Assembly: GCF_963675165.1 (NCBI RefSeq)
Contig: NC_087381.1
Location: 3,534,001 to 3,598,000, forward strand
Source of the DNA: Halichondria panicea
Taxonomy: Eukaryota; Porifera; Demospongiae; Suberitida; Halichondriidae
Reading direction: 5' to 3'
Length of the DNA stretch: 64,000 nucleotides
The notes below the pieces were generated by a model, which did not search any database, was not told where the DNA came from, and was given only the letters and a program-made list of their open reading frames with translations. Within the stretch, counting starts at the first letter, position 1. Every line of letters begins with the position of its first letter. Below, in pieces: positions 3,301 through 49,994 of the stretch. Both the position numbers and the translations under genes were made by a program.

Positions 3301-3572
3301 CTGGTTAATAATATCCATTGTCTGTCTTCGTGCACAAAATGTTCAGCTTCACAGCTGCTTACTGCTTTGTTCATGCATAGCAACCTGCCCCCCATTGACT
3401 TCTCCTGCTGACGGTGACATCTCGTATGACCCGGCTGCTCTGCCTAATGGGGAGTATGGTGTTGGCGCAGTAGCCACATTCTCTTGTGACAATAACTTCG
3501 ATCTGTCCGGATCTGCCACCAGAACGTGCTTGGGGAACCACACCTGGGACAATAGCGACTCAACATGCCAAG
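363..3572 (+). repeat. Tandem array of eight near-identical sushi (CCP) exons
   Basis: Exons at 363-554, 786-980, 1148-1342, 1604-1798, 2044-2238, 2498-2689, 2933-3124 and 3381-3572 each encode one CCP/sushi domain of 64-65 residues and are phase 1-1. The core reads NGEYGVG, then ATF(F/S)CDNNFDLSG, ending TWDNS(D/N)S(T/R)CQG. The four Cys pattern and the Trp before the last Cys are kept. An NHT N-glycosylation site is present in all except copy 7 (NHA). The introns are also alike (each ends near TTCATGCATAG), so the duplicated unit is exon plus intron, about 360-455 bp. Alternative length variants have two (DQ) or three (DVP) codons after ISY. Copies 3 and 5 are the closest pair, as are 2 and 4. 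Confidence 0.95.
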
Positions 3573-6500
3573 GTATAAGTACATGCAGTCTTGAACTAGC
3601 AATGTAAATGATTTGTTGCATTACCAATGTCAAGGTGAAATAACTTAGTTGTATCCACCTATAACTAATTTTCTATCCTCCTGATGTGGCATTAATTACC
3701 CCGTGCGTATGCAGCGCACAGTAGAGGTAGAGTGATTGGTGTGTGTGTGTGCATGTGGACACAAAATGAGCTGTTTGTGCAAACTAGATACTTTCATGAA
3801 CTGCTTTAACTTCTAATGAGACGGTAGTTGCAAAATAATAGGACAGTGGCGGATCTATAGGATTCTTTCAGGGGGGTTCCCGTGGCAAGACAGGCCTCAA
3901 GCGGGGCGGACTCTGCTAAAATAAAAGGTCATCACTTCTATGGAACAGTACAGTCAGCGTGCGTATTACAACATTAGTCATAATTGTAGGTGCCAACCTC
4001 CTAAGAAAAATTTACGGGACAAAAAAATCGAGCAGGTTTAGCCCCATTTTGTAAAGACATTTATTATTAGCAGTTGCCACAAAACTGCAAAACATGTTTG
4101 ATCGTAGTGATAGACAGACTTAACTTTTGGCGTCGATCAACAATCATGTCGATTATAACCCACTCTTCAAGTTTCCCTGTGATTCTGGATTCCACCTGCA
4201 TGCAAAATTAATTAATGCAAAAATGTCATCATGATAAGTGTGTATAAAAGCAGCTTTATGTTGTGTAGCTTCGGCACCACCTCTGTGGTGCTTTCATTAT
4301 GTTAGCTATTCAAGAATGTTGTGCCAATTTGAAAGACAACCTCAGATCCCCTTGCAGGCACTTTAATATGTGCGCACACGCATATCAGCCCCCCCCCTTC
4401 TAAGCTCTTTGTACTATCCACTCTCTACTCTTTTCCTACACCACTGCTATGAGTGTCAACATATTCACATTTCAATTGCTAGCTATTAGTCTGTGTGATA
4501 GACCATGCAAGTACACACCTCTGGTACACCACTCTCCATGCATCTCATGTCTGTGGATTAGGCCTTACTGCAACCTTATATAGCTAGATCTGTACTAGTA
4601 CAGGCCAATTCTGCAAACTTAACAGAGACCACTCAAGTATATAGTTCTGCATGCATGTAGTCCATGTTTACATGTAGTTGGGCGTAGCCCAACCGTCCCT
4701 GACGGGAGGTCAGGTTTCAAGCCTATGTCAGGATTTGTCTTTCTGGATTATGTAACACGCTGATAGCAGCGACAAAAATCCAGAAGTGACACATCACTAG
4801 TAATTATCATTCTGAAGTGGGTGTTAACCAATTTTACCTTGCTTGCGGTTGCGCAACCGGACGTGACAGAGACCACATTAGAAAAGCTGCAACCATATTG
4901 CAGCTCAAGACAAATCCTTACACAGGCATGAAACCCGACATCCCGTCAGGGGCGGTCGGGCCACGCCCAACTAGTTTACATGTAGACTCGTAAACCACTC
5001 CTTTTTCTCTGATTGGACGGAGGCGGTCTAATCAGAGAAAAAGGAGTGGCTTGCAAGTCTAGTTTACATGTGGGTTAACAATTGTGTTCACCCCATTGTT
5101 GTGTGTGTGTTGCAAAGGTGTTTAAAACTGCTGTAACTTACTTTCCTCTTTTTTGTATCCAGTTGCAGCATGTCTGGGTCTCAATCTCCAGAATGGCATT
5201 GTGCAGTACTCCAATGATACTCAAGCTGAACCGTTTGATGAGGGTACGGAAGCACAATTCTCCTGTAATGAAGGCTACTCTCTCTTAAACGATAGTACTC
5301 TTGTGTGTGTCAATATCAGTGGACTTCTAACCTGGAGTAATGATCCTTCAATTTGCCAGCGTAAGACTTAAGTTTTTGTATGCCTTATTTTATTAACATT
5401 ATATATATATACCTTATGTAATACCAGGAGCACATGGGGAGCGCGCGTCTTACTATGACAAAATTATTATGGCAATGTTTGTACACAGTAGAACGATATC
5501 AAAACTGAGTAGTAAGATGCTCCATCTCCTCACGTACGTACTCCTGGTAATACTGCAATCTACTCTCACGTAATTTATCCTATACTAGAGCTATGGTTAT
5601 ATATATGTTTTGTATAACAAAGGGTTGAAGTAGACAACCAATCAGTGAACACACTCTTTCTTTGCTGTGCAGGTATCACATGTGATCCACCCATTCTGGA
5701 TCATGGAATGATTCGATACACTGCGGGCACAACGGCACCATATGATTATGGTACAATAGCTACTTTTTCTTGTAATGATGGCTTCGCCTTAGTTGGAAGT
5801 ACTGCCAGAACCTGCAGTGGAAGTGGACAAAGCGTGAAAGGAGTTTGGAACGAAAGCATCCCATATTGTAAGCTGCTGAGTCTTGCAGCCTCCAAAGATG
5901 TATGCATCCATGTGTTATTATGAGGCTTTTGTTTGCAAATTCATACTTAGCATGCTGCCAATCTTAATTTCAGGTGATGCTGGAGAGTGCACTTTTGCTG
6001 GAAATGAATTTCCATTTGTCAATGTGACAACTTTTCCAAACTTTCAGACACTCAATAAATCAGAAGACGTGACATCTGAACCTATCACTATACCGGACAA
6101 ATTAGTGTTTGGAGACAGAATAGTCGACACTGCATACGTGAGTTACAAATATATTGTTAGGGTTGATAAATTATGCTAGCATAATTTTGATCATAATTAG
6201 TACATTTTTTTTGGTTAGAATCATGATTTTAGAATAATAGGCAGGTTTTACAGAAATACAGGTCAGTACGAGTCATAGTATAGTACGAGTCATATAGTAT
6301 AAACATTTGGAAGTACTGCATGGTGCATGGTTAATTATCTTCTATATATATCATAGTGTATAATATAGATAGTTATGATTGTGGCAAGTTTAATGTTACT
6401 TGTGCGACGACATGATATGTGGTCTATATGTTGTGCTTTGGAGAAATAATCGGTGGGAATAATAGGTGATTTGAAAAGAATAATAGCCAATTTGAAAGAA

Positions 6501-9500
6501 TATATAATAGGTTGTTTACTTGAGCATGAAGGAATAGCATAATAGGTAATATCTCGATCATAATAATTATACCAACCCCTATAATTATATTGTCTTGTTG
6601 CAGTATTCACAGTATAAAGCTTTTAATTTTTGTTTCAGGTAAATGAAAATGGGGCTATCTCGTTTGATCAATCCTGGATGTTTTCTTCGCCTAAACGTTT
6701 TCCAACTGAAATACAGTCGATCGCGAATCGCTTGGTTGTAGCACCCTTTTGGAGTGACAATGATATTCGAAAAGAAGGGTCAGTAAAATTTGCTACCTAC
6801 TCCACTGAAGAAGAGGGCACTAACCCTTTGGGAGCTGAACTTATGGCAAACCTCACCAGGTATATTCGCAGTCTCGGTGACGAAGTGGACTTTGAGGGCA
6901 GGTGGTTTCTCGTTGCTCATTGGGATAGGGTACACCCTAGCCCACATGGTGGAGAAAGTACTAATGGAATTCATCAGTCCGATCTGGATTTGGTGAGTTG
7001 ATTTTATAATAACTGTCAAATTAGCCCCGTTTACATGAGGCCTTTAATCCGGGTTGGAATCTGGATTAAACTTAACCGCGTTCGTGTAACCGGGCCTTAT
7101 CCGGGTTCTAATATGGATTAGCCAACCCACCTCTGGATGTGGTTCAGATTGTATCAGAAGCAGTTTTGCTGTGAGTAAGCACAATAGAGTACTAATTCTG
7201 AGATGTTGTAAATGCATGTTTTTGTGGGTGTTCCTAGAGTAAGCCTGTAGCTTCCTACAGTATCAGCCAATTTTTGCAAATGCAATATTAGTGGTCATAA
7301 ATTTACTCTGCCCACTACTCAGAAAAGTCTGTGGATTCAATCCTGATTCGAATTCGACCCGGATTAGGTGTCGTGCCGTTATAGTTTTTAGCGCCCGCCC
7401 CTCTAGTTCGCCTAACAGGTACTAAGCTTGGGTATGGAGAGGGTGGTTGTGGTGCCTGTACAGTAATGCTATCCTGGTGTCAGGAGGGCCTGGTTACAAA
7501 TGCTGCTGTCAACGCTTTCTGTAAAGGATAAGAGCCGCTACTGTGTATTTGTTTTAGCTATTTGTCCATATGGTTTTCCTACCATTGCCCTATATTATAC
7601 CATATTGCTATCCTTTTATCAGCGTATTAATTTTCAGGTGAACAATTATCAAGCCATCATTGTTAGTGGAGTGGTTCGTGCCTATGCTGTGTTCTCGTAC
7701 ATTTGTGGGGAGATGCAGTGGAGCTCCGTTGGTGCAAATGATTTAGCTGTAGTGGGATTCAATGCAGCTGGTCCATTTAATGGAGTTAATGATGAACTTT
7801 CATTCAAGAATTACCGGCTGTCTGGTCTGCCAAACGTTGGTGTGACTATTTCTTGTGAATACGAGCCAGTAACAAATCTGATCATTCGACTGCCATCAAC
7901 CGAAGCTCAAAGGAGAAAGTTGGAATGCATTCAACAATTAAAAAGAGACATGGATATTTTACAAGGTGAAACTACTTACACCGAATTGGCAGATATGCTA
8001 ACACAGTGCCCTTGCTCAAGAGATCAATGTCTTCAGGATGAAGCTCGTTTTATTAGGCAAGAAAGTATTACGGATCGTGAATGCTACATCACTACAAATC
8101 CTATTGAAATGCAGATTGGAGAGCAATATCTTACTATTACACAGCAGTGTTGCTACACCTCAAACAGGTGATTTTCTCACTAAACTGTCATAATGATATC
8201 CTTGTATGAATTAACATAATTATTTTACTGTCATATTTAGAGCTCTGTACAAAGATCCTACTGGATCACATGCTGGAACAATGCTTTTATTTCATCCAAT
8301 CAAAGACCCTGACAACTATAATCGTGTCGATAATGTGTTGAGAGAGACATGCTGCAGTAATAATCAAGGGTTTTGTGAACGCTTTCTTCAGCAAAGGATA
8401 GTTAACAACTGTGACAATTTTCAGGGTCCTAAAGTATGTAAGTAAATCTATATCTATATAGTAACTCTAGAACTCAAGACACGTCATTTATCCCCATGCA
8501 AGGCTTACTAGAGAAAGGGGTTGTTTTCAGTGCTTCTACATGATTATTCTGTATGAGCCTAAGTTTAGAGAAACTCTTGTTCTTGCCCAGTAAAATTAAT
8601 GGATAGATAATTGTGTTCTCTCTCTGCATGTAAGGAGAGATTCAATCTATTGCCGCCATGATGATTTAATTATGTAATTTTAGGTAGTGGTACTGGAGAC
8701 CCTCATTTCTGGACAATGGACCGAGTGTACCACACTTTCAATGGAAGGGGTGATTTTATCACCATGGAGATTGAATCTGAAGATGGTACAGAAATGGAAT
8801 TTGCTCTGCAAGCAAGGATGGCTAATGAGAGATTTTGGAGGGTCACCATTCAACGCGGAATTGCGTTCGGAAATGAAAAACTAGCATTCCATGTAAGTTT
8901 AAAAGGTGTAATACAGCATAATAATTAAGAACTGAAGAACCTCAGAAATTTAATAATGGTTCCATATAGAATTTAACTTGTCAATCATTGCTATCATAAT
9001 AATATTGTTCTTTGCACAACCACTTTTATCTGCAGTTTGGAATGCCTCCTGATGGATTTAAAGTGTATCAAACTAGACCAGGGCCTACTGAAGACATTAC
9101 TGATCAGTTGCAAAACGGACAACCTTGGCTACACAGTTCAAAAGATGCTCTGCTTACACGAAATGGCAACACTCTCAAAGCTCTAATGTTTGAAGCCGGG
9201 ATTGCTGTTGAAGGCAGTGTTAACTTATATAGCGATATTTACTACATGAATGTGAGGATGAAAGTTCCACCAACATATGGTAGTCGCCCGAGGGGATTTT
9301 ACGGTTCTCCAGACGGGAACAACAGAAACGATTTGTATGCAAGGAATGCAACGTCCCCTATTTTGCCACCGTATTCCGATCGCCAACTGTATCCATATTT
9401 GTTGACATGTAAGTGGATCAGTGTGTTGATAATTATTTTAGTAGATAGCATGCTGTATGTTGTGACCTGTATAATTATTATAACAACTGTAACTAGTGTT

Positions 9501-12500
9501 TTTAGAGGTTGTCTTTTAGTGCTAATAGTTACGAGTAACATTTCTTCGTACGGTAGGGAAGGTTCGTGATGAAGAGAGTCTGTTTTATGTTCCTGAGGTA
9601 CCCACTACACTGCCACCAGTTACCTTTGATGCACTCACTGACATGCCATCAAGTACTGAACCTCCAACTGAAGAAGAGTGGGTGCCAGTCTTTGTTGACG
9701 ATCTAGACTTTACTCCAGAGCAAAAAATGGTTTGTGGTGAAAACTTGCAGTGTCTTTTTGACTTGAACGTTACCGGTGAAATGGATATTGCAATGGAAAC
9801 TTTGAACCATGGCCAAGAAACTGAAGAAACCAGAGATACTATAGGTAAGTGACATTTTACACCACCTTAAGTTGTTTCTACAACATAATAATAGATCTAC
9901 TTCAGCACAGGAACCAATGCATTAATAATTCATTATTAAACCCTCTGATAGATAACTTTCCGCCGAATATCACGGCTGAAAGAATTCTCAGAGTGAATCT
10001 CGGAGAGGAATCGGTATTGCTGATCTCAGTGATAGATCCAGGAGATAACTTCACTTTGTCTCTCGAAGGAGGAGTTCCAGAAAATGCTACACTTGAAGAA
10101 CTTGAAATTGGTGAATATGGCTTTAGATGGACACTTCATCATATTACAGATCGAGTTTTGGAGTTTGTTGCAACTGACACGAGAGGTGCCAGTTCTACAT
10201 TCATGCCACGAGTTGAGCTGTGTTCTTGCGTGAATGGTGGAGAGTGTACTCTAAATGGAGTGGTGTCTGATTCTGCAACCATCACAATGAATTGTCTCTG
10301 CTTAGAAGGTGATTGCAATAGTTATACTAGTATATACTGTATTCTATAGTATTATGCTCAGAAGATAATTATGATTGCAATTAATACTTGTATTCGATTT
10401 GTAAAGAAGAATCATTGCATAACACCTGCATGTGTAGGGGTTGGTAGATTATGCTCGAGATATTACCTATTATTCTCCCTTTTATTCTTTTCAAATTGCC
10501 TACAAATCGCCTATTATTCTCACATTATTCCTCCAAAGCACAACATAGGCCTCATGTCGCCACACAAGTAACATGATTCAAACTATAAATAATTGCCAAG
10601 TAACTCTTATAGAATTGCAAGGAGATAATTCACCACCAGTATTTCCAAATGTTTATACTATGACTCGTACTGACCTGTATTTCTGTAAAACCTGCCTCAT
10701 AATTGTTATAATTGTTCCTATTATGCCAGTATAATTCTCCCCAAAAAATGTACCTATTATGCTCAAAATTATGCAAGCATAATCTACCAACCTCTACACC
10801 TGTGACAGTGCATGTTATGAAATGTAAAACCTGATCGCTATTTTTGTTAAGCTTATACTGGAGGGTTTTGTCAAGAGGATCGCGATGGATGTACTGAGAT
10901 CCAGTGCTTTGAAGGAGTTGAGTGTATCGACGTCCCTGCTCCCGGTGTGGGGGCTGAGTGTGGACCCTGCCCTGATGGGTTCACAGGGAACTCTCGGAAG
11001 TGTTACGGTTCGCCATCCAATAGATATAACAAGTGTATGTTTAATACTGCATGATTTCCGGTGTGTAGATATTGACGAATGCGCTCAGAACAGTACTATC
11101 TGCTCTCAAATCTGCATTAACACCCGAGGAAATTATTTCTGCTCTTGCTACAATGGGTTCCAACTCATTGAAGGAACCAATCAGTGTGAAGGTATAACCA
11201 TGCATGTATGTCTATATAATAATATTATTCATAGAAACTATTTTCTATGCATGCATGTGTATATATGTAATAATTATATCCTAGTTGCACATCCAATAGA
11301 GCCTTGTGCTTCATTTTATTCTTAGATGTTGACGAATGCAATGACATCAATGATTGTCAGCAAATCTGTGAAAACAACGAGGGCTCATATGTCTGCAGTT
11401 GTAAGGCAGGATTCACTCTTTCTGAAGACAACAGCACATGCAACGGTATAGGTGTATTTGTCTACTCTCCATGTATAATACACGAAAGTTGTACTGAAGA
11501 ATCTGATGAAGAATTCATATTGTCACTGCCAAGTGTTATTATAGTACTGGCAGGCTATATAGAGCATATTTTAATTACTTACAAAAATGTTTAAATTTGA
11601 GCATGTTATAATTATCACGTATGATTACTTTCCAAAGCTGATGAACCATGTGCTGGAGAATGCTCTTTTGGTTGTGCTGTTGTAAACGGTTCTGAACAGT
11701 GCTTCTGTCCCACTGGATATGAGTTAGCATTGTCTAACAAAACCGAGTGTGTGGGTGAGTGAATGTTTCAGCATTTAACACAATTATTCCCATCCATTGA
11801 GCTACATAAACTTTAAGCCACTTTTCAGATATTGACGAATGCGCATCTGCTAACGCTCCATGTGACCAGCTCTGCAACAATACTGGTGGATCATTTCACT
11901 GTGAATGCAATAGAGGTTACAGCTTAGCAGATAATGAAAGAACATGTGAAGGTATAATTATAATTATACAAATAAAGCGTTATTGCTTATTGTGCTGCTA
12001 TAGATGTTGATGAATGTTTTGAGGCTGCTCTAAGAGATGAAGAAGTTTGTGGAAGAAATGGTCAATGTCTGAACAAAGAAGGGTCATTTGAGTGTGCTTG
12101 TGTCACTGGTTTTGTTTGGATGAATGAAGCCTGCCAACGTGAGTTGAACCTTTCGTACTAAGTATGAGCGTATCATTTGTCATCAGCATAATTATTACTA
12201 CACAGTATGTTATAATTATGAGATGCATCATCGTATTTTAGTGTCAGAAATGTATGTCATTTCTACATCAAATTTCAAAAGATGCGTTTCATTTAACATG
12301 TTTTATGTTACTGTAGCGAATATGTTTTTACTGTGCACAGGTATTTCCTGTGATAAGCTTGGTCTCAACAATGGAGTGATTTTATATACACCTGACTCTG
12401 CAACACCGTATGTTACCGGTACCATTGCAACTCATAAGTGTGCTGAGGGATTTGCTCTGATTGGTGAATCAATGAGAACCTGTGAACTGACCAATGTCAC

Positions 12501-15500
12501 ACAGGGAAGGTGGAGTGGACTAGCTCCAACTTGTGATCGTAAGTATATAATTGAATTAAGCAACTGTTGATATAATAAATCGCTTTCCACAGGAATTGTA
12601 TGTCCAGTACTGACGTCCATTGGAAATGGATCAATTTCCTATGTAGATGATGCAGACAGTAGAAGTCCATACGATTTTGGCTCTATAGCCAATTATTACT
12701 GTCATTCGTTATTCCATTTAGTAGGGGATGCAATACGAGTGTGTGGAAATGGTGAAGGTCTCATTGGAGAGTGGAATGGGACAGATCCAACATGTGAACG
12801 TGAGTTTGTGTTTGTCTTTTACCTGATAACCACTACTCATTCTTCTCTCAATTCGTGTAGCAATCCTTTGCTATGAGCAGCTGACACTGAATAATGGATG
12901 CATTGACTTCTTTAATTTTAATTACGGTTATTATTATCGCCAATGTGTGCCTGGTTATGAAAGACCCCCTGCACATAAACTCAATAGTATTGCTATTCAC
13001 TATTGCAATGACGGATACTTTCGGGATGGAATTTCTTTCAGAAATTGTGATGATGTAGGCAATGGCCTTATTGGAGAATGGGATGGTGTTCCTCCCACCT
13101 GTCAACGTAAGCATTATAATTATACTTTATTAACGTCAATGTGAAAAGTGTATACACATACATACCGTATAGCGGGTACTTTTCATTGGTGCAAATTTTC
13201 GGATCAACAGCCATTTAAATATTCATACAGCTCAGGATAGTTATGTTGAACGTATATATTGCAGTAGAATAAATTTCATAGTTTTAATTTTCATATAATG
13301 TTCTACAATACGAAATAATAATACGAAAATTTCCACCATACCAAAAGAACCCGCTTTATACTGTAATTATGTAATTGGTCCTTTGGCACCGTTGATTTGA
13401 CACTATGTACGTAACTGTTCTCAATGCTGCTTTTCCAGCATTGTTTTGTCCTGAATTAAACCTCATCAATGGAATGATTGAGTACATTGGAGATGAAGAT
13501 GATCAGGCTCCATACAATTTCAGTACTCTTGCCATACACAACTGCAATGAGGGGTATGCGTTAGTGGGTCATGCTGAGAGAAACTGCAGTTACAGTGTTG
13601 GAAGTAATGGCAGATGGGATGGTTTATCTCCAACTTGTGACCGTAAGTAGTAAATATGAAGACTTTGGGATGAATTACAATTATGGTAACCAGAGTTGCT
13701 TCACTATGTTCTCGCGTTCATAATGCCTTTTTCCCGCACAGCAATATTCTGTGATGCACTTGAGCTCATTAATGGTCAAGTCTCTTACTTAAATGATACG
13801 GGACCTCCTTTTGAGTTCAACACTCTGGCCTCCCTTAGCTGCAATGAGGGCTACTCTCTTATTGGAAGTGAATTTACCATATGCCGTGGAAATGGAAATA
13901 GCACTGTTGGAGAATGGAGTGGAAATAACACTTTCTGCCATATAGGTATAATTATATATAAGTAGTTCTTGAAGTATCCAGGCGTCATAATGAGCCACAA
14001 AAAATATTTGTTTCAGCATAGCTTCTTTTATACAGATTCTATGTGCCCTCATATTCCTGATCCAAGATATGGGCAAATATATTTTACTGAAGACAATGTA
14101 GCACCATTTGAGGAAAACACCAAGGCTACTTACAGCTGTGACCTGGGCTATGGACTGGTGGGAGGTGATAGTTTGAGAACTTGTGAAATGAATGAATCCA
14201 ATGTGAATGGTGTATGGAGTGGAGAGGCACCATCCTGTGGAGGTAATTCTAGGTACCTTATTGTTACTATTATAGTAATTATAGCGAATTTGTAATTAAC
14301 GCTAAATTAAGTACGCGCTAATAATAAAATGCAATTAAAAAAATTAATTATGAATCTCGTAAAAAAAATGCTAAGCAAGCTAGCCCTTTATCTGACTCCA
14401 AAACTTTCCATACAACCTTAAAACTCGTACATGTACTTTTACATCTTTTTACTCAATATAATATTATTGTGATAATGAATTTGCTACAAATCCGCCAAAA
14501 TTAGTACCAGAAAAATCTGAAAACGCTATAAAAATTACTACCCGTCTAGTAACATTAAGGTATAGTAATAAATATACCTTAAGGTGACATATTTTCGCGT
14601 GTATTAATTTCTGCTATTTCTGCGAATGAGAGTAAAATCGCAAAAATTAGTACTCGCATATAATTGGCCGCCCTCTTGTTTAATGTATCCAGATCGACAT
14701 TTCACAAAAAATTATACCGCAAAATGTACAAAACTGTAAAAACGCAAACAAATCTACCTGTGAAAATATGTCACCTTAAGGTATAGCACCGTCGTTATAA
14801 ATTGTTTTCTTTTCAGCTATTATGTGTTCTGGACTGCTGGATAGTGCGAAAGGATCTAACATTAAATACAATGTCAATGCAAGCATCAGTGGAGACTATC
14901 CATTTGGAACAAGAGCCACTTACACATGCATAAAAGGTTTTGCACTGGTAGGAGATACAGCAAGAGTGTGCTCAGGAAATGATAGTAGTGCTTCTGGTTA
15001 TTTTGATGGAGCCCCTCCTACTTGTGAAGGTATAATTATTTATTCGTATAATAGGCCTTTATGGACGCAATAATTCTTACTTGTTGCAGAAATAACATGT
15101 GTGCAACTAAAGGCCCCAAGCAATGGATGGATTATTTACAACGGCAGCCTTCATGAAGATGATAACTTGGCATTCAATGTAAATGCTTTTTACAGTTGCG
15201 ACTTTGGCTATGCGTTGGTCGGACAAGAAACTAGGAGGTGTGCTGGAGATGGGAGTAGCACAACTGGTGCTTTTGAAGGGGCTAGTCCAACTTGTGAATG
15301 TAAGAGTTCATATTTTCGTTAAGAATCAGCATTATCTTTTTGCCTTTTCACAGTGATAATGTGTACTGATCTTCGCGATCCGTCTAATGGACAGATACAC
15401 TTTACTACTGATGACCTTGCTCCATTTGAGCTGGGTACTATGGCAATGTACAGCTGTGACCCAGGGTATGGCTTGGAAGGTGTACCCACTGTGAGAAAAT

Positions 15501-18500
15501 GTGAGAGTGATGGATCCAGTTTGGTGGGCAATTGGACCGGAGCAGCACCCTCCTGTGAAGGTATTGTCAAATAAATGGTGCTAGGTATTAAAGTTGTTCG
15601 TTTTGTTTGTCCAGTTACTTACATAATTATATCCTTTGCAATGTTGCATGCATGTGGAGGCATCACACTGCAATTCCAGTTACTACGTATTTTTATTGAA
15701 CAGGTATCGTTTGTGCTCCATTGGTTGAATTAGATAATGGTCATATCTACTATAATCTTGCTGCTGAGGAAAACGGCAACTTTCTCTTTGGAACTGTGGC
15801 TACGTACACTTGTTCATTGAGCTACAGTCTTGTTGGCTCTAGCACGACAACTTGCAGTGGTGATGGGAACAGCTCCATCGGTGCTTTCGAGAGAATTGAT
15901 GCACCAACCTGTGAAGGTATAATTATGTATATATATAAGGTACATGTATATATATAAGTTGACGGTGTACGTCAATGAGTAATATCATGACGTAGCTATA
16001 TTCTGGCACTCAATTTTCATGGTCTATATTAAATAAATGCATAAACTCTCTGATTATTAAGCTCCAACGTTGTGTATAATTATGCATATACACTCAATAT
16101 GACATGCACTATTCACTATGATTATGATTTTATGCCACCAGCTATTGTATGTCCATCGTTGGAGCTCTTCAATGGCGATATAATTTACTCCACTGAATTT
16201 GAAGCAAACGCTACAATATACACAATTGGAACTGAAGCTATTCAAACTTGTAATGCTGGGTACACTCTAGCTGGGAGTACAGTTAGAGTATGCGAACAAG
16301 TCAACGAGAATGGGATGTGGAGTGGAATTGCTTCGTTTTGTCAGCGTAAGTGGCTAGACTAGCACAACTCAAATACATTTAGTGGTTTCAACTTTTGTTT
16401 CACAGCAATTGAGTGTCCAACCCTAAATGCGCTTCAAAATGGACAAATCTCGTACCGTAACAATTAACTCTCCATATTAAGAACGATTCTTAGAGTATAT
16501 AATTATATAGTGAAAAGACATTGAATGTAATGCTGAACTTAGTATATACTTTTTGCTGCTCTCATAAAAATGTTGTTTTTGCTGTACTTCAAACAACTGT
16601 GTACAACCCAGTAAAATTAATGGTTCCTGATTTTTCATACGAATGAAGGTATAGCCTTCATCATGAGGCAACTATGCTAATTTTGAGTCACTGAAAGGTA
16701 ACTTTCTCTCACGTGCAGCGATAGTTGAGTTTGGACTTGACACGATGGCTATGTATCAGTGTGATACAGGGTTTACCCTCGTCGGAGACGTCAACAGGAC
16801 GTGCAAGATCAGCAATCAGACTACCTTTTGGGATGGAATGTCTTCATATTGTCAATGTAAGTCCTTTAGTTAATGAGAGTGTTGTCAATTATTTTCAATC
16901 AAATTAGTAATTACATGTGGTGCCTTGGACACTCTACTGGATGGAGATATAGAATACACTATGGATAATGATACTTTACCACCGTTTGATATTGGCACTG
17001 TGGCAATATTTAGCTGTCATGATGGATCTGTGTTGATTGGATCAGATCAGAGAGTTTGTGAGCTTACAGACACAAGTGCTGATTGGAATGAAGACCAACC
17101 AATCTGTGGATGTAAGCCAATCTATTGTTTAAAGCATAGCAATTGTGGCAACCCTTTGCTTTCATAAGTATGTATATAATGTAAATTAATACTAATAAGT
17201 GTCAACTATAGATCGAGTAGCACTCTATATAGTAGTGTGGTATTTCTTTTCTATGATTTTTCAGCTACATGCTCACCATTGGATACTCTGGCCAGTGGAA
17301 GTGTTAACTACACCGATGTACCAACGACTAATGGTGAATATCTTGCGGGAACTATGGCTACGTTCTTTTGTGAAGATGGGGCGAAACTCACTGGTGACAA
17401 CACAAGCACTTGCCAAGATGACCACACATGGACTGTCACTAATATATCATGTGAAGGTGTGTTTTACCCTGTGATATACTTGTTTATTGTACCTATAATT
17501 ATATAAGACCTAATGGTACCTATTATTATTATTATGGCTGGTTAAGATTATTATAGTAATGTGAATTGATCAATTTCCCAGGGAGAATATTCCTTCCTTT
17601 CTTGGATATTGTTGCGAATGATGGTGCTGTCTTGAAGAGCTTTGACTACATTGGGTGCTCTGACCTTGTCTTTATGAGCAGCGGATTACCTCTTGGATCG
17701 AGAATCGAAACCAAATTGAGGGTGAGTTTGATTACACTATCGATGAAAAATAACGTAGGAATAGCACTTCACACTTAACTAACACTAAATCTACAAATTT
17801 TGCTAAGCTATAGATCTATTATAAAGTTAATAATTATTACATGAGTATTGATGTTTTGTCTGTAGGTGTGCTCAAATGGAGTCATCAGTTTTGGCACCAA
17901 CCACTTCTATTTCTGGTACCCTGAAAGGTTTCCAAGCCCATACATTTTTATCAGACGCACCAATGTGCTTGCTGTATTCTGGAATGATCATGATCCACGT
18001 ACTGACGGAATAGTACAGTACAAAGTCTACTCCATTGGTCAAGGAAAACATGCTGAGCAGTACCTTAGCACTGTGAGTAACTATGTATCAAAACAACAAC
18101 TAAAAAACTTCACTGGAACCTGGATGTTAGTAGCGTATTGGAACCAAGTACCACCATATCCGTATGGATCAAATTACTGGGTAAGCCAACTAATCTATTA
18201 AGCTGGTACACCAGTACATTAAAATGCCTTTTGCTAAATACAATTATCCAAAAATTATTTTCTTGGCAGCGGAACTACTACTCGATCCGAGATTTACCTC
18301 AAAATTCCTACCAAGCAATAGTGATCACAGACAATGTAGATACTTTCTCAGTCTTCATTTACAACTGTGAACAAATGGACTGGACAAGACCTCCTTATTC
18401 ATACAAAGACGCGGTGATTGGGTACAACTTGAACTCAGAATACACAAATTTTGCATCGATTCCCACCTTCCGCAACCACCCTCTAAGTGGACTGTCTGAA

Positions 18501-21500
18501 GTGAATATGATCGCATGTACCAACAAGGACAAGGGAATAAACTGGTCTAACGTTGTATATCAGATTGGAGAGACAAATGATGCTAGACAGCTTGCTCGTG
18601 CAGAGTGCTTGCGAAGACGAAATCAAGATATCAAACTCTTTCATAACCTCAATCCCACTGCAAGATCAAATGCTCCTTGTCCATGTTCCGTTTGGCAGGC
18701 ATGGGGAGATCGTCGCTACTGGTACATGTCGTGGATCAACTACTACTTCTTTTACTACCAAGTTGGGTCTGAAGATGTACAGATACCTTACTATTGCTGG
18801 GCCTCGAGATTTCCAACATCTCTTAGTAACGGAATCAACCTCTGTTGCTACAGTTTCAGGTAAGTTCTTTCTCCATGAGGATGATAAGTAGCTTGCAACT
18901 GAACGCCTCGAGACAAAAGGCTATAAATAGTATATTATGCATGTATGTTATGCTGGTCACACCTGCTCATGCAGATATAATTATATTAAATTTGTCTTCA
19001 GCAATCAAAACTTTGGAGCTCTACTTGACAGTTCATTTGGTGCTGATGGAAGCACCCTGTTGCGATACCACCCTTACTGGCAATATAGCGAATTTGTAGA
19101 GTATGACTATAAATTTCAGCGCTCGTGTTGCAGAGATTCAGATCTATGTGAGGAGTATACAAGATTGAGATCCTCCGACAACTGTGATGCTTACAGACCT
19201 CCACGATGGTGTAAGTAGTAAATTTAAATACCGTATAGTGGGTATAATATTCGTGGGCAAATTGACCTCAACGAAAACTTTACCCAAGAAAACTTATAGG
19301 TGTGATTTACCAGAACGCATGTAAGGATTCAAATGAACTTTTTACTCACGAAAATCACCATTGTTCAATTAAGTTTAACATTTTTTACCCCACAAAAATT
19401 ACCTGCTATGCGATAGTGTAATGTCATGGCTACAAGCGTCTATAATTATGCATACTCAATCACGTATAATCATGTTCTAAGAAATAGGTGGATCCAAGTA
19501 AGCCTATAGGTACACAGTCATAATTTATAATTCAATATAGCATTCTTTAAACTGTATGCAAAGTACCAGGTATATACCCATTAAAAACTAGGCTGCCGCT
19601 ATATTACCACAGCTTTGGTCTGGGGTGATCCTCACATCACCACTCTGGATGGTCGTGTGTACACATTCAATGGATGGGGAGAGTACACTCTTCTGAGCAT
19701 TGACAGTGGAGACACCTCCTTCAGACTGCAGGGACGCACTCAACCAGTTGTGAATTCATCGGCCACACAGTTCTCAGCATTTGCCTTTGGTGTTCCTGAC
19801 ACATCTGCTGTCGAGGTATAATTATAATAATTATATGCTATACGGACTTGTGTAATATTTATATATATACTGTCTACAAATACACAGTTCTGAAAATAAC
19901 TCACATGTATGTCACATCGATTTTCTGTGTTACAGGTCTATCTGAATGAATCTACTAACAAAACATTCATTTTCTTAAACTCTGAGGAAATTACTGCAAA
20001 TGTGTCTAATGTGAATGACACTTTCAACTCACTAGAGCTCACAGTAGTGAGAGACAGTGAAAGTTCTCACACATTTAGCTTCCCCTGTGGAATTGGATTA
20101 ACAACGAGGGTATCTTCTGGTATCATGAGTTTTGTGCTCACAGTACCTGAGGAGTTGAATGGAACAACAGAGGGACTGGTTGGAAACTTCAATGGAAACA
20201 TCACTGATGACTTTACCTATCCAAATGGGACTGTGCTAAGCGATGGAGCAACAGACAGAGAGATACATGAATTAGGACAGGCTTGTGAGAATCCTAAGTT
20301 AACGTGGGAGCCTTTATTCCCTCATTGAATGACGTATATACATTATAAATTATAGTGTGTACAGAGTATGCTGAATTTCTTAGCATACTAATCAGTCAGA
20401 AGGCTGAGTGTGTTGTACTACTCACGGTTATAGTATCTATGGACCTATGGTGTGTGCTACGAAGGTTGTGATTATAGTTGCTGTTGGAGTATCACATGCA
20501 TTTTTTTCATAGGGGCTATAAATCTTGAGGAGTCACTTTTTAACTATCCCAATGGATTGAACGCTTCTGATTTTTTCCACCCTGATCACACCCCTGCATT
20601 CCTGGATGAAGTCGTCAACAATGCTAGCAAGGAAGTGCTTGAGGCTTGTGGGGATAATGTGGAGTGCATCTTCGATGCTTCTCAGACTGGAGACATTGGT
20701 ATTGGTCTGGAGACGATGGAAGTTGATACTGAGAATCAAATGGATCAGGCAATCACTGGTAAGTTTTATATATGCATGACAATCTTGTACACATATGCAC
20801 CTACATTGTATACAGGAAATAATCCCCCTCGAATAGCTGGACCAACCACTTTGTTGGTCAATTTGGGTGAGGTGGCAGAGATTCGACTCAATGTGACTGA
20901 CGACCGCAACATCTTTAACATTTCTGTGATTGGTGGTCTCCCTAGAAACGCAACACTGTCACAATCAGACGAGAAGTCGACTGAATTCACCTTTAAGTGG
21001 TTTTCAGATGATATTGTAAATATTTCTCTAACATTCGAGGCAAAGGATGATTTTGAGGCTATTTCAGTACATAATGTTCAAGTGCAACTGTGTGCTTGTG
21101 AGAATAGTGGGAACTGTACGACTGATGGACTGCTTATCGTCACTGGAAATACTCTTGTACTCAACTGTGAATGCCCAGAAGGTCAGTTATTGTATTATTC
21201 CGCCAGTGTATGGTTAAGTGTATGGTTATTAGCTTGTATCACAGGGATAGAATAATTATATGATTTTCTATCTCATCTGAATAACTTCAGCTTTAATTCT
21301 ACTGGTTATACTTTCACAATTATACAAACCTTGCATGGCTAAATGTCAGTTCTTTTTTCATGATTGTGCATAGCCTGGGAGGGAGAGTTCTGTACAGAGG
21401 ATGTTGATGGATGTACTGAGATCCAGTGCTTTGAAGGAGTTGAGTGTATCGACGTCCCTGCTCCCGGTGTGGGGGCTGAGTGTGGACCCTGCCCTGACGG

Positions 21501-24500
21501 GTTCGTCAAAGATGGAGAGAAATGTCAAGGTACAGTTGTAGATCTATATCCATGGTATCATTCGTGGCGCCCCTGAACAAACTGAGAGCAGCTTATATTT
21601 CTGCATGGGAGGATAGTATGTTGGAGTATTAAGAGTGTCCATCAATTTTGTAGTTGGGCGCACGGCACGGTTCAGTATGACTGAAATAAGCACTGTAACT
21701 GTAGCTATAATTATACATTACAATAATTATAACGAGTGCAATCTGGTTTAAAACTTAACCCAAACATTAATACAGATCTTGATGAGTGTTTGAATGGTAC
21801 TAATTCATGTCAGCAAGTCTGCATTAACACGGAGGGAAGCTATAAGTGTGACTGCAAAACAGGGTACTCTTTGAGCAACACTACACACTGCGAAGGTACG
21901 TATGCTGCATGTTTGCCAGTATTCTATTCTGAATTACCTCTCAATAGACATTGATGAGTGCTCCATGCTGAATGGTAACTGCCACCACACCTGTACCAAT
22001 ACTGGGGGCGCATTCTACTGCAATTGTCGAGAAGGCTTTGTGCTGACTAACAATAACAGAACTTGTCAAGGTACGTACACCTAGTATTGTAGTTGCATGC
22101 AGTAGATTGCATGCAGTAGATTACCCACCATTGCCTACATTTGCTGGTAGAGACACATCATTATACAGAAGTCATTATTACTAGCTTCGTAAATCATACG
22201 TTTTATTATTACTATATAGCTTTAGCTGTGTTTTCCTGTGATAACTCCACCAACTGCACTCAAAACTGCATCCGACTGTTTGGAGTGGACCAGTGCAGCT
22301 GTGATACTGGATACAAATTGGACACCGACAATGTGACCTGTTTAGGTACATTGCTGTCTTTTGTGGGAACACTTGCTCATACATACATTACAATCTATAC
22401 TATAGTGTAATCAAACATTAAAAAATTCACCTACAGTAATACCATTCAATCGGTAGTAGCGACGGGCAATGTGTACAAAGGGTAGGGACGTAAAATCAAT
22501 TTTCTTATATTATGGGCATGGTATCAAGCTGCAAATTAACGTTGAATATCACATTATACGACATAATTATAGCTATAGTGTTTACAATGTTACAATTTTA
22601 CAAGCACCTTTAAAATTGGCACGTGTAGATACCGATGAGTGCTTGCAAAACCCTTGCGGCCAGGTGTGCATCAATTTTTATGGAGGATTTGAGTGTTCTT
22701 GTACAGAAGGATACCTACTTGGTCCAAATAGGATGCTGTGCAATGGTAAGGAGAAATGTGTATCGCCAGACATAATTATTGCCTATGGCATGGAGTTTAC
22801 ATCATGTACATGCAAGAAGTACATGTAAGAAAATAAAAGTTTGAGATGCTGTAATTATTGCCTTGTGTCTGGTTCTGTTATGTAATAGAAAAAATGTATT
22901 TACTTTTCTTTAGACATTAATGAGTGTGTTCAGGCTGCTCTGGCTGGCACTGATGTGTGCCACTCCTCAATGATCTGTGTGAACCTCGTTGGTCACTACA
23001 GATGTGACTGCCCGGGGGGGACATTGCTGGTTGATGGCACTTGTCTGGAACCAGGTCAGCCAGCATAAAACTTACGATAAGAATTTTAATGTACATGATA
23101 ATCTGTACTGAGAGAGAGCGTTGTTTAATACATTTCACATCGATAATTTTTTTACAGAGCTTGTTACTACTGCTATTCCGACCACTTCTTCTACCACCCG
23201 ACCTACAACTGATGTTTTATCTGAAACTACCACCAAGCCTACAACAGTGCGGACTACTGAAGCAACCACAGCAACAGAAAAAACCATTGGACCCACGACA
23301 GCGCAGACTACTGCTGCAACCACCGGACCCACCACAGCGCAGACTACGGAAGCAACCTCCGGACCTACCACAGCTCAGACTACTGCAGCAACCACCGGAC
23401 CCACCACGACACCAACTACTGCAGCAACCACCGGACCCACCACAGCGCAGAGCACTGCAGCAACCACCGGACCCACCACAGTGCAGACTACTGCAGCAAC
23501 CACCGGACCCACCACGGCGCAGACTATTGCAGCAACCACTGGTCCAACAGCAGCTCAGATTACAGAAGCAACAACCGGACCCACAGCAGCGCAGACTACT
23601 GCAGCAACCACCGGACCCACCACTGCGCAGACCACTGCAGCAACCACCGGACCCACCACAGCGCAGACTACTGCAGCAACCACTGGACCCACCACAGTGC
23701 ACACTACTGCAGCAACCACCGGACCCACCACAGCGCAGACTACTGCAGCAACCACCGGACCCACCACAGCGCAGACTACTGCAGCAACCACCGGACCCAC
23801 CACAGCGCAGACTACTGCAGCAACCACCGGACCCACCACAGCGCAGACTACTGCAGCAACCACCGGACCCACCACAGCGCAGACTACTGCAGCAACTACC
23901 GGACCCACCACAGCGCAGAGCACTGCAGCAACCACCGGACCCACCACAGCGCAGACTACTGCAGCAACTACCGGACCCACCACAGCGCAGAGCACTGCAG
24001 CAACCACCGGACCCACCACAGTGCAGACTACTGCAGCAACTACCGGACCCACCACAGCGCAGAGCACTGCAGCAACCACCAGACCCACCACAGCGCAGAC
24101 TACTCAATCAATGTATTCTTCCACTGAAACAAATTCTGAATCTACAGAACAAATATCCTCTAGTCCAACTGATTTAATAACTAATCGTACTACTGGTGGC
24201 ACAACTGCATATGAAACATCGCCAACAACAACGGTATCTCCTGAAGTTGTAGTATCGGCTGTCCAAGTCAGCTTATCACAGTACACAGCAGATACAGTAA
24301 GTTTGAATAGCTACAATTAAGAAACACAATGAGTTGTTAGTTAGTTTGGTTCAATTTTTGTGCGTTAGCGAATGCATGCATGTGAGTGTGTAATTGAAAT
24401 GGCTTATTTGGTTCACAGTTTGATGTGGGGGCTCAGCAGATATTCAGAGAAGCAACAGCCTCAGTGATCAACATGTATTGTGCTCAGAGTGTTGATAAGT

Positions 24501-25461
24501 GTCAACGGTCACAGGAAATAAAGTGAGTATACCAGCTGTAGAACATTGATATTTGCTATTAATTTTATTCATGTACAGGCGACAAGCTGGAACAGTCACA
24601 GCTGATGACATCATCCTAACAGACATACGGGACAATGAGCAGGGAATGGTGATGTTTACTATGCATGTTCAATTGGAAGCAGGGTTACTGATGGCTACTG
24701 ATCTTCAACAAGCTATAGAGGTAGGAACATTTCACTCAGTAATTCAGCAAAATTAATGGCTTACAAGACATTAATCTGCCATGATGCCTTTACATAATTA
24801 TGTGACTTAAATCATGGGAGTCCCCGGGTAAATATGTACATGCACTCCATAGGAAGGAAGGAATATTTATGCTGACACTGGATTCTCGGGCTTGTCCTTG
24901 GAGGTATTGGTAACAGAAGCCCCTAGAACAACCAGTTTAACAGGAGGACAGATTGCTGGGATAGCAGTAGGGTTCCTCATGCTCACAATCATATCCATCA
25001 TGATTTTTGTTGCTGTTCTGAGGTTAGTTAAAGTTATTTCCCAACTGTACAATACATACAATTATAATATAATTATACTCTACAATACTATTTGTGCATT
25101 AACTAGTACATAAATCTCTTTATTTTCCAGTTACATAAAGTATTGTCGCCACTACAAGAAGGGTGTGGACCTTACGTCAAGCTGTGTCGAGTATCAAAAT
25201 CCACTAGCCACTGTAAAAGCCGACCACTCAAAAATCCAACCAGCAACTGTTGAAAGAAATGAAGAAACTGTGATACAAGAAGAACAACTTATTGCAAAAG
25301 ACCAAGAAATCGATGGTAAGAAAAAAGTTGGATTGGAGTGCAGTTTGCTTCGAGACCAAGGGCGTATCAACCCCAATTATCGAGACGCAGGAACGGTTGA
25401 TGAAGATGAAGAGTTCCCCAACCTCTCGCAACTCACCATTGAGAGTGAGGAGAGGAACTGA
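363..25461 (+). CDS. Giant sushi/NIDO/AMOP/VWD/EGF mucin-like transmembrane protein (5' partial)
   Basis: A predicted cell-surface, mainly extracellular adhesion or mucin-type protein. Fifty-eight exons can be chained from 363 to the TGA at 25459-25461. Every junction has GT/AG borders and matching phase, giving about 4,400 codons. Most domain exons are symmetric phase 1-1, the class suited to exon shuffling. Order: CCP1-8 (363-3572), CCP9-10, NIDO1, AMOP1, VWD1, cadherin-like 1, EGF-type exons, CCP11-24, NIDO2, AMOP2, VWD2, cadherin-like 2, EGF-type exons, Thr/Pro repeat, juxtamembrane domain, TM helix, tail. NIDO-AMOP-VWD in series is the signature of mucin-4; SUSD2 has AMOP, VWD and sushi. 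No signal peptide is visible because the first exon begins mid-codon, so the 5' end is outside the window. An annotation might split it in two near 12.2 kb, but the intron phases continue and no stop or start intervenes. No mutation breaks the frame. Confidence 0.9.
4675..4973. mobile_element. MITE with ~65-bp terminal inverted repeats, TAG...CTA ends
   Basis: The element begins TAGTTGGGCGTAGCCC and ends GGGCCACGCCCAACTA. The inverted arms run about 65 bp. It is flanked on both sides by the 9-bp direct repeat GTTTACATG (4666-4674 and 4974-4982). Long arms with a 9-bp target duplication point to a Mutator-like element by family knowledge. No transposase ORF. Confidence 0.85.
4983..5061. mobile_element. 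79-bp palindromic MITE, TAGACTCG family
   Basis: An almost perfect hairpin from TAGACTCG to CAAGTCTA with the arm CTCCTTTTTCTCTGATT. It is flanked by GTTTACATG at 4974-4982 and 5062-5070. The left copy is the same one that bounds the neighbouring element. The same family makes the ends of the 764-bp element at 50135-50898. Confidence 0.88.
5163..5867 (+). other. CCP9 and CCP10 exons of the giant gene
   Basis: Exons 5163-5360 and 5673-5867 encode two sushi domains diverged from CCP1-8. CCP9 starts [15 protein letters not shown]10 starts [11 protein letters not shown] and contains [15 protein letters not shown]. The last Cys codon of CCP10 is split by the intron (T|GT) and completed in the NIDO1 exon. 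Confidence 0.92.
5423..5548. mobile_element. Intronic inverted-repeat element
   Basis: The arms begin ACCAGGAG and end CTCCTGGT, with further imperfect pairing inward (ATGGGGAG versus CTCCAT). About 126 bp, non-coding, in the intron between CCP9 and CCP10. Confidence 0.65.
6159..6580. mobile_element. Intronic MITE, GGTTGGTAGATTATGC family, copy 1
   Basis: It begins AGGGTTGATAAATTATGC and ends ACCAACCCCT. The interior shares long stretches with 10436-10795 in opposite orientation, including the ACGAGTCATAGTAT block and the TTGAAAAGAATAATAG block. No ORF. Confidence 0.8.
7419..7531 (+). pseudogene. Captured xanthine dehydrogenase 2Fe-2S exon fragment
   Basis: After an acceptor-like CTAACAG the reading is [18 protein letters not shown], then VTNAAVNAF, ending at TAA 7529-7531. 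This matches the N-terminal 2Fe-2S signature of xanthine dehydrogenase/aldehyde oxidase. In that family the motif is [10 protein letters not shown]; here the first ligand Cys is Tyr. It lies in the NIDO1 intron 6993-7637, has no donor and is stopped, so it is not expected to be functional. It was probably carried in by a mobile element or recombination. Confidence 0.72.
8684..9844 (+). other. VWD1 domain and post-VWD segment of the giant gene
   Basis: Exons 8684-8892, 9036-9408 and 9557-9844. The VWD opening is [11 protein letters not shown]...[10 protein letters not shown], diverged from the usual GDPHI..DG..Y.FNG.GEY. Near the end, [20 protein letters not shown] replaces the usual GNWNGN.TDD. 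The post-VWD part has W[13 protein letters not shown] and [15 protein letters not shown], the pattern also seen after VWD in mucin-4-type proteins. More diverged than VWD2. Confidence 0.88.
9952..10308 (+). other. Cadherin-like segment 1 with Cys-rich end
   Basis: One phase 1-1 exon of 119 codons. It opens [10 protein letters not shown] and contains [19 protein letters not shown] and [11 protein letters not shown], a pattern of Ig/cadherin-like beta domains. It ends with Cys-rich [13 protein letters not shown]. It is the clear counterpart of exon 20816-21181. I cannot assign it to a named family with certainty. Confidence 0.75.
10436..10795. mobile_element. Intronic MITE, GGTTGGTAGATTATGC family, copy 2 (inverted)
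   Basis: It begins AGGGGTTGGTAGATTATGC and ends GCATAATCTACCAACCTCT, which are clear terminal inverted repeats. The interior is an inverted copy of 6159-6580. It lies in the intron before the EGF-type exon 10852. Confidence 0.85.
10852..12138 (+). other. EGF-type exons, first series
   Basis: Exons 10852-11034 (alternative donor at 11007), 11069-11191, 11326-11445, 11638-11754, 11829-11951 and 12004-12138, all phase 1-1. Four begin with the calcium-binding signature D(I/V)DEC. The exon at 11638 ([14 protein letters not shown]) lacks it. The first, [14 protein letters not shown], contains a 92-bp stretch identical to exon 21374-21529. The intron between the last two exons is only 52 bp. Confidence 0.9.
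13163..13365. mobile_element. Intronic MITE, TACCGTATAGCGGGTA family
   Basis: It begins TACCGTATAGCGGGTACTTTT and ends AACCCGCTTTATACTGTA. Related elements lie at 19229-19420, 27768 onward, 41701-41888 and 45711-45886. Confidence 0.8.
14575..14783. mobile_element. Intronic MITE, CCTTAAGGTGACATATTTTC family
   Basis: Its ends are TACCTTAAGGTGACATATTT and its complement, each containing the palindrome CCTTAAGG. TA at both ends fits a Tc1/mariner-type target. A second copy is at 33892-34091. It sits in the intron between CCP16 and CCP17. Confidence 0.85.
17582..19210 (+). other. NIDO2 and AMOP2 domains of the giant gene
   Basis: Exons 17582-17721, 17866-18180, 18270-18859 and 19002-19210 have the same phases as unit 1 (1-0, 0-0, 0-2, 2-1). 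NIDO2 shows [34 protein letters not shown] and [15 protein letters not shown]2 has [21 protein letters not shown] and [14 protein letters not shown]. The identical exon boundaries and phases are the strongest evidence that units 1 and 2 arose by duplication. Confidence 0.92.
19229..19420. mobile_element. Intronic MITE, TACCGTATAGCGGGTA family
   Basis: It begins TACCGTATAGTGGGTATAAT and ends ATTACCTGCTATGCGATAGTG. It lies between AMOP2 and VWD2. It is closest to 41701-41888: both share the GTGGGCAA.(T/C)TGACCTC and TTTACTC(A/C)CGAAAATCAC blocks. Confidence 0.75.
19613..20758 (+). other. VWD2 domain and post-VWD segment
   Basis: Exons 19613-19815, 19936-20284 and 20513-20758. Canonical VWD motifs: [20 protein letters not shown] and [20 protein letters not shown] place the donor at 20285 (GCTT|gtgaga), because the next exon then reads W[14 protein letters not shown], matching unit 1. 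[16 protein letters not shown] follows. Confidence 0.92.
20816..21181 (+). other. Cadherin-like segment 2
   Basis: One phase 1-1 exon. It opens NNPPRIAGP, contains [15 protein letters not shown] and a Thr/Asn-rich strand pattern, and ends with [14 protein letters not shown]. It is the counterpart of 9952-10308. Confidence 0.75.
21374..23054 (+). other. EGF-type exons, second series
   Basis: Exons 21374-21529, 21776-21895, 21948-22070, 22220-22345, 22629-22745 and 22914-23054, all phase 1-1. DLDEC, DIDEC, DTDEC and DINEC mark calcium-binding EGF domains. The 22220 exon lacks the motif, and a second in-frame acceptor six bases downstream (22226) could give a variant two codons shorter. The 21896-21947 intron is 52 bp. 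Confidence 0.9.
23158..24296 (+). repeat. Mucin-like Thr/Pro tandem-repeat exon
   Basis: A single 1,139-bp exon (phase 1 to 0). From about 23300 to 24100 a 36-bp unit encoding [12 protein letters not shown] repeats about 22 times with few substitutions. Thr-rich repeats with Pro are typical O-glycosylation stalks of mucins. The flanks are Thr/Ser-rich non-repeat sequence. The low divergence suggests a variable-number repeat. The antisense frames are open only because the period is a multiple of three. Confidence 0.93.
24419..25461 (+). other. Juxtamembrane domain, TM helix and cytoplasmic tail
   Basis: Exons 24419-24522, 24579-24720, 24853-25022 and 25131-25461. The first three encode a roughly 110-residue globular stretch ([45 protein letters not shown]). 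It sits where SEA domains occur in mucins, but I see no GSVVV-type cleavage site. About 24951-25018 encodes a hydrophobic helix ([20 protein letters not shown]). The tail is about 110 residues, acidic at the end. It contains EYQNP, a YxN motif that could bind SH2 domains if phosphorylated. TGA at 25459-25461. No clear AATAAA just downstream. Confidence 0.88.
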
Positions 25462-48960: not shown

Positions 48961-49994
48961 CAACAATGCAAGAGAAAGAAGTACAATAAATATAACCAAA
49001 AGTGCACAAATCATAAAGTGATGCAACCAGAACAAAACCAATTACCTACTGGTTCTTTGCGAAATTTGGCACAGCAATAGTGATACCACTCACTACATTT
49101 GTCACACATGACCATATCCTCAAAAGAGTCCGGTCTCTTGCACATGCAGTATATTGTAATGGCAATGGTTTGTGGTGTTGGTCTTTTGGGCATCGCTTTC
49201 TTTGTGCGAGGGAACCGTGAGAGTTTGCCCTTCTCAAAGCACTTAATGAGATGTGCTCTCATTTTGGCCTCATCAAACACTAGAGAATCCACATTATCGT
49301 TCATAGCAGCGTGATATGCAGCAGCAATGCTAAATAGTCCGCAGTTGTTAGCACCCTCTTGCTGCTGGAGAGCCACCACAGAAATCAACAGCCCATTGCA
49401 TTGAATTAATGGGCTATACACTTGTGCTATCTGGAGCTCAGTACTTGGGGAAAGCGTTCCATTGAAGCAGCTGTCGTACAAATACAGTTCACCCTTAAAC
49501 AGAGAAGTGGCAATCCAGTGCTGTCGTTCTTCAACAAAGAAGATTTGCACAGCTGCACGTGTACAAGTAAAATTATCATAATTACATAAACGTTGTCTTA
49601 CCTGGGCCTTGATTATTGGAAACTGGTGGAAATGCCTTTAATTGGGCCAAGAGAGTATTATAGCAGCCTTCAAACTTAAGGAATTGCATCGATAATAACT
49701 GGTGGGCTGCACGCATATGCTTGTCGGAGAGCATACCACCTATTGCACTCAACACTTGTTTGTCAAAGAGGTTTAGATCTAGGGTCTTCAGCCACATCGT
49801 TCCCTATAATCATATACACAGAAGTCTAAGAATTGTACAACATATATACACAGCTTATACAGAATATTCTACCAAGAAAATAGACATGTTATGATAATTA
49901 TATATTATTACCTGACTCTTTTGTTTCTTCCTAGGAGGTGACTTGCAAGGATCTTTTGTGTCAAGAGGACGCTTATCACGCTTATCTTGCTTTT

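Follow-up and report, generated by a model that had tools for sequence, protein, structure and literature searches.

A predicted sponge protein of the MUC4/SUSD2/Mesh kind that carries its NIDO-AMOP-VWD-EGF module twice

The 64,000-nucleotide stretch of Halichondria panicea contig NC_087381.1 analyzed here (the window; positions count from its first letter) probably holds one gene, whose product would be a type I membrane protein akin to MUC4, SUSD2 and Mesh and in which a whole 14-exon module (NIDO-AMOP-VWD-C8-3-Ig-like-EGF6) has been duplicated. In the predicted model, 58 exons, the first at 363 and the last with a stop at 25461, share one reading frame that gives 4393 residues plus the stop. 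Two homologous units with matching intron phases lie in this open frame. They are separated by a spacer of CCP (Sushi) domains and followed by a mucin-like stalk and a transmembrane helix; each VWD bears a GDPH motif, and one identical DNA tract, apparently a conversion tract, is shared between the units. An initial annotation of this DNA had proposed a doubled core module in one protein, which the model recovers as one predicted open frame with the order NIDO-AMOP-VWD-(C8-3)-Ig/cadherin-like-EGF6 in each unit.

Unit 1 (5974-12138) and unit 2 (17582-23054) are each composed of eight core exons, A to H, and six EGF exons:

5974-6137, 6639-6992, 7623-8167, 8241-8437, 8684-8892, 9036-9408, 9557-9844, 9952-10308, plus strand: core exons A to H of unit 1 (model)
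17582-17721, 17866-18180, 18270-18859, 19002-19210, 19613-19815, 19936-20284, 20513-20758, 20816-21181, plus strand: core exons A to H of unit 2 (model, partly set by hand)
10852-11007, 11069-11191, 11326-11445, 11638-11754, 11829-11951, 12004-12138, plus strand: EGF exons of unit 1 (EGF_CA, cEGF)
21374-21529, 21776-21895, 21948-22070, 22226-22345, 22629-22745, 22914-23054, plus strand: EGF exons of unit 2 (model, Pfam)

The core phases are 1-0, 0-0, 0-2, 2-1, 1-0, 0-1, 1-1, 1-1 in both units, and all EGF exons are of phase 1-1. The agreement in exon order, exon number and every phase that had been described before is thus found again, with several unit 2 boundaries set by hand. In an 8 × 8 exon control, the in-register core pairs A to H reach z values of 0.7, 28.7, 23.7, 16.7, 14.5, 5.0, 12.2 and 32.3, so that seven of the eight, B to H, show similarity (z 5.0 to 32.3), and the largest value among the 56 off-register pairs is 3.1. 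The cores are 31% identical (24-38% for single pairs, global alignment). Five of the eight core exon ends share an alignment column (trivially so for the one that closes the alignment), and the remaining three lie 2, 10 and 10 columns apart.

The domain content of the cores was assigned with Pfam profiles and, for exon H, with a fold model:

5974-6992, continuing into 7623-8167, plus strand: NIDO of unit 1 (PF06119)
7623-8437, plus strand: end of NIDO, then AMOP of unit 1 (PF03782, just under the cut-off)
8684-9408 (8684-8892, 9036-9408), plus strand: VWD with GDPH of unit 1 (PF00094)
9557-9844, plus strand: C8-3 of unit 1 (PF23263)
9952-10308, plus strand: Ig/cadherin-like exon of unit 1 (38% identity to its partner; fold from the unit 2 copy)
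17582-18180 (hand-set exons), continuing into 18270-18859, plus strand: NIDO of unit 2 (PF06119)
18270-19210, plus strand: end of NIDO, then AMOP-like segment of unit 2 (homology to unit 1)
19613-20284 (19613-19815, 19936-20284), plus strand: VWD with GDPH of unit 2 (PF00094)
20513-20758, plus strand: C8-3 of unit 2 (PF23263)
20816-21181, plus strand: Ig/cadherin-like exon of unit 2 (fold model, Foldseek)

NIDO scores 70.9 bits in unit 1 and 69.2 bits in unit 2 (Pfam cut-off 25), and the mucin-4 type C8-3 scores 31.0 and 44.7 bits (cut-off 25). The VWD of unit 2 covers profile positions 3-156 of 156 with 68.7 bits, while that of unit 1 reaches 29.8 bits in two stretches, of which the best spans the first 45 of 156 positions (cut-off 22.9). 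Scans of whole units give NIDO and C8-3_MUC4 in both and VWD in unit 2 only; the VWD match of unit 1 comes from the isolated segment. The AMOP of unit 1 lies just under the cut-off of 25 (23.9 bits, E 5.1e-5, profile positions 15-86 of 143), and the isolated segment of unit 2 has no Pfam AMOP match at E<=10, so the name rests there on homology to unit 1, whose AMOP exons match those of unit 2 with z 23.7 and 16.7. The search with NIDO, AMOP and VWD profiles that the initial annotation had suggested therefore finds NIDO and VWD in both units, and AMOP under the cut-off in one and unmatched in the other. When a core profile of two rows is compared with PDB sequences, 25 distinct matches are obtained (E up to 1), which are VWD regions of FCGBP, VWF and gel-forming mucins. 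Beyond what had been annotated, C8-3_MUC4 is present in both units, and there are two GDPH sites.

Unit 1 had been described as drifted and unit 2 as canonical. This holds for VWD and C8-3 and fails for NIDO and AMOP: a uniform drift of unit 1 is rejected, since NIDO scores are close and AMOP is the better match in unit 1. The drift goes per domain, not per unit. The "cadherin" of exon H also stands only in part. The two copies are 38% identical, and neither has a cadherin match in Pfam at E<=10. The unit 2 copy, folded alone with two rows, gives a mainly stranded model with a poor tail (pLDDT 73.5). At E<=0.001 Foldseek returns 49 hits in the PDB for this model, a mixture of Ig, Siglec and cadherin folds. 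At the modest confidence of this model, exon H can be called only an Ig/cadherin-like β-sandwich.

The closest link between the units at the DNA level lies in their first EGF exons:

10884-10975 and 21406-21497, plus strand: putative conversion tract, 92 nt identical

This run, a feature additional to the initial annotation, is identical including silent sites and ends inside the exon on both sides. It lies in the only match that blastn finds between the units (plus strand, E<=0.001), which is 93% identical over 123 nt. Of the 40 residues shared by this exon pair, 37 are encoded by the same codon (binomial probability 1e-11 at p 0.41 and 7e-8 at p 0.53), compared with fractions of 0.27-0.64 for the other 13 exon pairs, and the flanking introns are unlike (ungapped identity 25% and 34%). 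The tract is best read as a recent gene conversion between two units of one gene. It is very improbable that the identity stems instead from an assembly error or from selection at the peptide level. The peptide does resemble a thrombospondin-type EGF, a conserved kind, which would favor selection; the shared codons, the ends within the exon and the unlike introns argue against both explanations.

The units are framed by CCP exons, and the protein ends in a stalk, a membrane-spanning helix and a tail:

363-3572, plus strand: tandem array of eight near-identical CCP (Sushi) exons, phase 1-1 (8/8 pass Sushi)
5163-5867 (5163-5360, 5673-5867), plus strand: two further CCP exons before unit 1 (Sushi)
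12341-17456, plus strand: fourteen CCPs in 15 exons between the units (model, Sushi)
23158-24296, plus strand: Thr-rich mucin-like stalk of 12-residue (36-bp) repeats (repeat, composition)
24419-24720 (24419-24522, 24579-24720), plus strand: juxtamembrane exons (model)
24853-25461, plus strand: transmembrane exon 24853-25022 and cytoplasmic tail 25131-25461 with stop (hydropathy)

The fourteen CCPs that had been counted between the units are confirmed, and 13 of the 14 pass Sushi singly. Unlike the CCPs around it, CCP12 is interrupted by one more intron (phase 1, 262 bp), which leaves exons 16406-16456 and 16719-16856. The mucin stalk and transmembrane helix at the end are likewise borne out: the 36-bp repeat has 22.9 copies, its 380 residues contain 43% T, 18% A, 8% P and 6% S, and exon 24853-25022 encodes one helix with a hydropathy of 2.83 over 19 residues. 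The only other window above 1.6 is weak (1.66) and lies in unit 1. The juxtamembrane segment has no Pfam match at E<=10, SEA included.

The window holds 24 CCPs in total. The CCP12 intron and the ten CCPs upstream of unit 1, eight of them near-identical, were absent from the earlier description. CCP exons and introns form a tandem repeat at 1029-3575 with a period of about 435 bp and 5.7 copies (TRF), and the array exons with 60-nt flanks are 83-97% identical in nucleotides. The array looks like a recent tandem expansion, and its copy number may vary. A query of one array CCP together with exons 5163-5360 and 5673-5867 gives three Sushi stretches.

The spacer bears on whether one gene or two is present. 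It is rather unlikely that two tandem genes are present, one with a single module that stops near 12.2 kb and another whose start lies in the CCP array. Retention of the intron after 12138 would lead to a stop after 7 residues, and therefore a short form could end near 12138; poly(A)-like hexamers also occur in several introns, such as three in 14243-14816. Against two genes, each of the 15 spacer CCP exons is flanked in the model by an acceptor and a donor and is in phase 1 at both sides, none of the six introns above 150 bp, out of 16 in 12139-17581, contains a signal-peptide-like first exon, and by this model the first gene would have neither stalk nor transmembrane helix.

Within a single gene, the duplication could most simply have arisen by unequal exchange between phase-1 introns, and the frame would be kept because both edges of the block are in phase 1. 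A less probable route, though one to be taken seriously, is the fusion of two whole tandem gene copies, of which copy 1 lost its stalk and transmembrane helix and copy 2 its signal peptide. It draws on the tree of 24 CCPs, which has three well-supported inner branches of 21: CCP14, adjoining unit 2 upstream, groups with the CCP array preceding unit 1 (support 95/87), and the repeated segment may therefore reach upstream of NIDO. Against such a fusion, a search between the units gives no clear relic of a juxtamembrane segment, transmembrane helix or tail (the single match at E<=1 has E 0.085), another repeat of the stalk type is absent from all of 5000-26000, and duplication of the phase-1 block alone suffices.

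Several points weigh against an internal duplication in one gene. Exons picked by eye served to train the codon scores of a splice-aware Viterbi scan; acceptors, donors and frames were then inspected to complete the model. The automatic scan calls all eight core exons of unit 1 and only D, E and F of unit 2 in full; A2 and B2 were missed, C2 was begun late and G2 was merged with H2. Exons A2 and B2, the C2 start, the G2/H2 split, EGF1.1-EGF1.3 and CCP12a were set by hand from candidate splice sites. Unit 1 was known when the unit 2 core exons and EGF1.1-EGF1.3 were placed, and the phases of those exons therefore do not count as independent evidence. The G2-H2 intron (57 bp) is stop-free and divisible by three and may therefore be exon, and donor scores are poor for some exons (11007, 11445). 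The exon A pair shows no similarity beyond chance. EGF exons 1, 2, 4 and 6 of unit 1 have their best match in register with unit 2, but EGF 3 fits EGF 2 of unit 2 slightly better and EGF 5 clearly fits EGF 3 better; a tree of the 12 EGFs leaves eight of nine inner forks open. At the 5' end, the only signal-peptide-like candidate in 27 introns above 150 bp and the left-edge stretch, 4449-4548, is weak with a weak donor, and could start a gene downstream of the CCP array. At the 3' end, the first poly(A)-like hexamer lies 595 nt downstream of the stop. Splicing and single-gene status are predicted from sequence features.

The joining of two already different modules is a further reading. On this account, modules of different ancestors were brought together by exon shuffling and their similarity is that of a common family, which appears unlikely. 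The core identity of only 31%, the drift in opposite directions by domain and the dissimilar first exon pair favor it; the agreement of 14/14 exons in order and phase, with the hand-set exons as a caveat, and the DNA exchanged between the units speak for duplication instead.

No start codon is found in the model, whose first exons are the eight CCP exons toward the left edge, and the gene therefore probably begins beyond that edge. In the rest of the window (25462-64000), tblastn with the model protein without its stalk gives no match at E<=0.01. Two minus-strand fragments, 50819-51294 and 49094-49552, resemble by eye an integrase core and a Ulp1/PHD-type protein and are likely transposon remains.

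The GDPH motif occurs exactly twice in the 4393 residues, once per VWD. In FCGBP, changing the Asp of GDPH prevents cleavage, changing the His inhibits it, and a nearby Gln matters partly; in some VWDs no disulfide fastens strand 1 to the domain (PMC10880436, cited part). MUC4 is putatively cut at GDPH (PMC8660890, cited part), and SUSD2 is cut there into fragments joined by disulfides that involve cysteines outside defined domains (PMC6696261, cited part). In the sponge protein, neither VWD has a tethering cysteine pair for strand 1: unit 1 has one cysteine five residues before the Asp and the next not until +248, and no cysteine lies between -14 and +113 in unit 2. The precursor may therefore be cut twice. 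Cleavage of each VWD between Asp and Pro would split the precursor into three chains rather than two, the first of at least 1073 residues and the others of 2051 and 1269. Given the missing cysteine pair, these pieces would stay together through non-covalent contacts or through disulfides at other places, and stepwise shedding would be possible. Cleavage, once or twice, is suggested here by the motif. Two points count against it: the VWD of unit 1 fits its profile well over the first 45 positions only, which makes cleavage there doubtful, and the SUSD2 authors favor an enzyme over autocatalysis (PMC6696261, cited part). A speculative and rather doubtful extension is a two-stage cleavable surface protein, in which the doubled core with its two GDPH sites would give three chains without a VWD tethering disulfide, the outer and then the inner module would be shed, and one EGF would be kept identical by gene conversion for a shared partner.

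Searches with the core matched a pattern in 34 stretches of a genome contig collection and 50 stretches of a viral contig collection, with no relatives among either. With VWD-C8-3, 18 stretches of the genome contig collection gave one relative, a bacterial VWD; eukaryote relatives were absent from the two collections searched. A GDPH-bearing VWD (Pfam 53.5 bits) lies in a 932-residue protein of a Trueperaceae metagenome-assembled genome (L001:6789-9587) and scores higher with unit 2 (75.5 bits) than with unit 1 (39.7 bits). The segment after it looks C8-3-like of the mucin-4 kind by eye; Pfam gives only RGM_C below threshold (21.5 bits, cut-off 27).

Known proteins share much of this architecture; the comparisons refer to the cited parts of the sources. 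MUC4 has NIDO, AMOP, VWD with GDPH, EGF, a tandem-repeat region, a transmembrane helix and a tail (PMC8660890, PMC9080433), and the C8-3 profile matched in the sponge protein is named mucin-4-like. The sponge protein differs by its doubled module and its 24 CCPs within the window, and by a stalk that adjoins the membrane, whereas the MUC4 repeats lie in the N-terminal subunit (PMC8660890). SUSD2 shares AMOP, a VWD cut at GDPH, Sushi and a single transmembrane helix, but it has 822 amino acids, a somatomedin B domain and one core, and NIDO and EGF are unnamed in the passage (PMC6696261). Drosophila Mesh and rootworm DVSSJ2 share NIDO, an Ig-type (TIG) domain, AMOP, VWD, Sushi and a single transmembrane helix; they have one core with TIG between NIDO and AMOP, and EGF and a mucin stalk are unlisted in that part (PMC4964579). 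A single core per protein, as stated earlier for mucin-4 and SUSD2 proteins, agrees with the sources on SUSD2 and Mesh/DVSSJ2, and MUC4 is listed with one NIDO and one AMOP. Cnidarian mucin4-like proteins have NIDO, AMOP, VWD, a transmembrane helix and varying extra domains, which are CUB, ZP, FN3 or SEA; sushi and CCP are absent as terms from the main text and the number of cores is unstated in the part used (PMC9080433). FCGBP likewise has several GDPH-bearing VWDs per chain (11 of 13 D assemblies), but these assemblies also contain C8, TIL and E domains as well as strand-1 disulfides; NIDO and AMOP are unnamed in that part (PMC10880436). No paper on sponge AMOP proteins was found by title, and none appear in the cited part of PMC8260672. 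Broader literature searches also gave no title on a doubled core, which is no claim of absence from print or databases.

Mesh-type proteins belong to the smooth septate junctions needed for the gut barrier (PMC4964579, cited part), and MUC4 is located on epithelial surfaces (PMC8660890, cited part). Epithelial barriers and junctions, as with Mesh, and mucous surfaces, as with MUC4, are where proteins bearing the AMOP-VWD core act. Judged from these kin, the sponge protein most likely serves in adhesion or as a barrier while tethered to the membrane, and its mucin-like stalk would hold it away from the cell. The sponge protein appears to be an unusual variant of the known MUC4/SUSD2/Mesh kind. 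Its double-core form would allow asking what each copy does and would be a test case for two Asp-Pro cuts in one chain and for sequence exchange among units of one gene.

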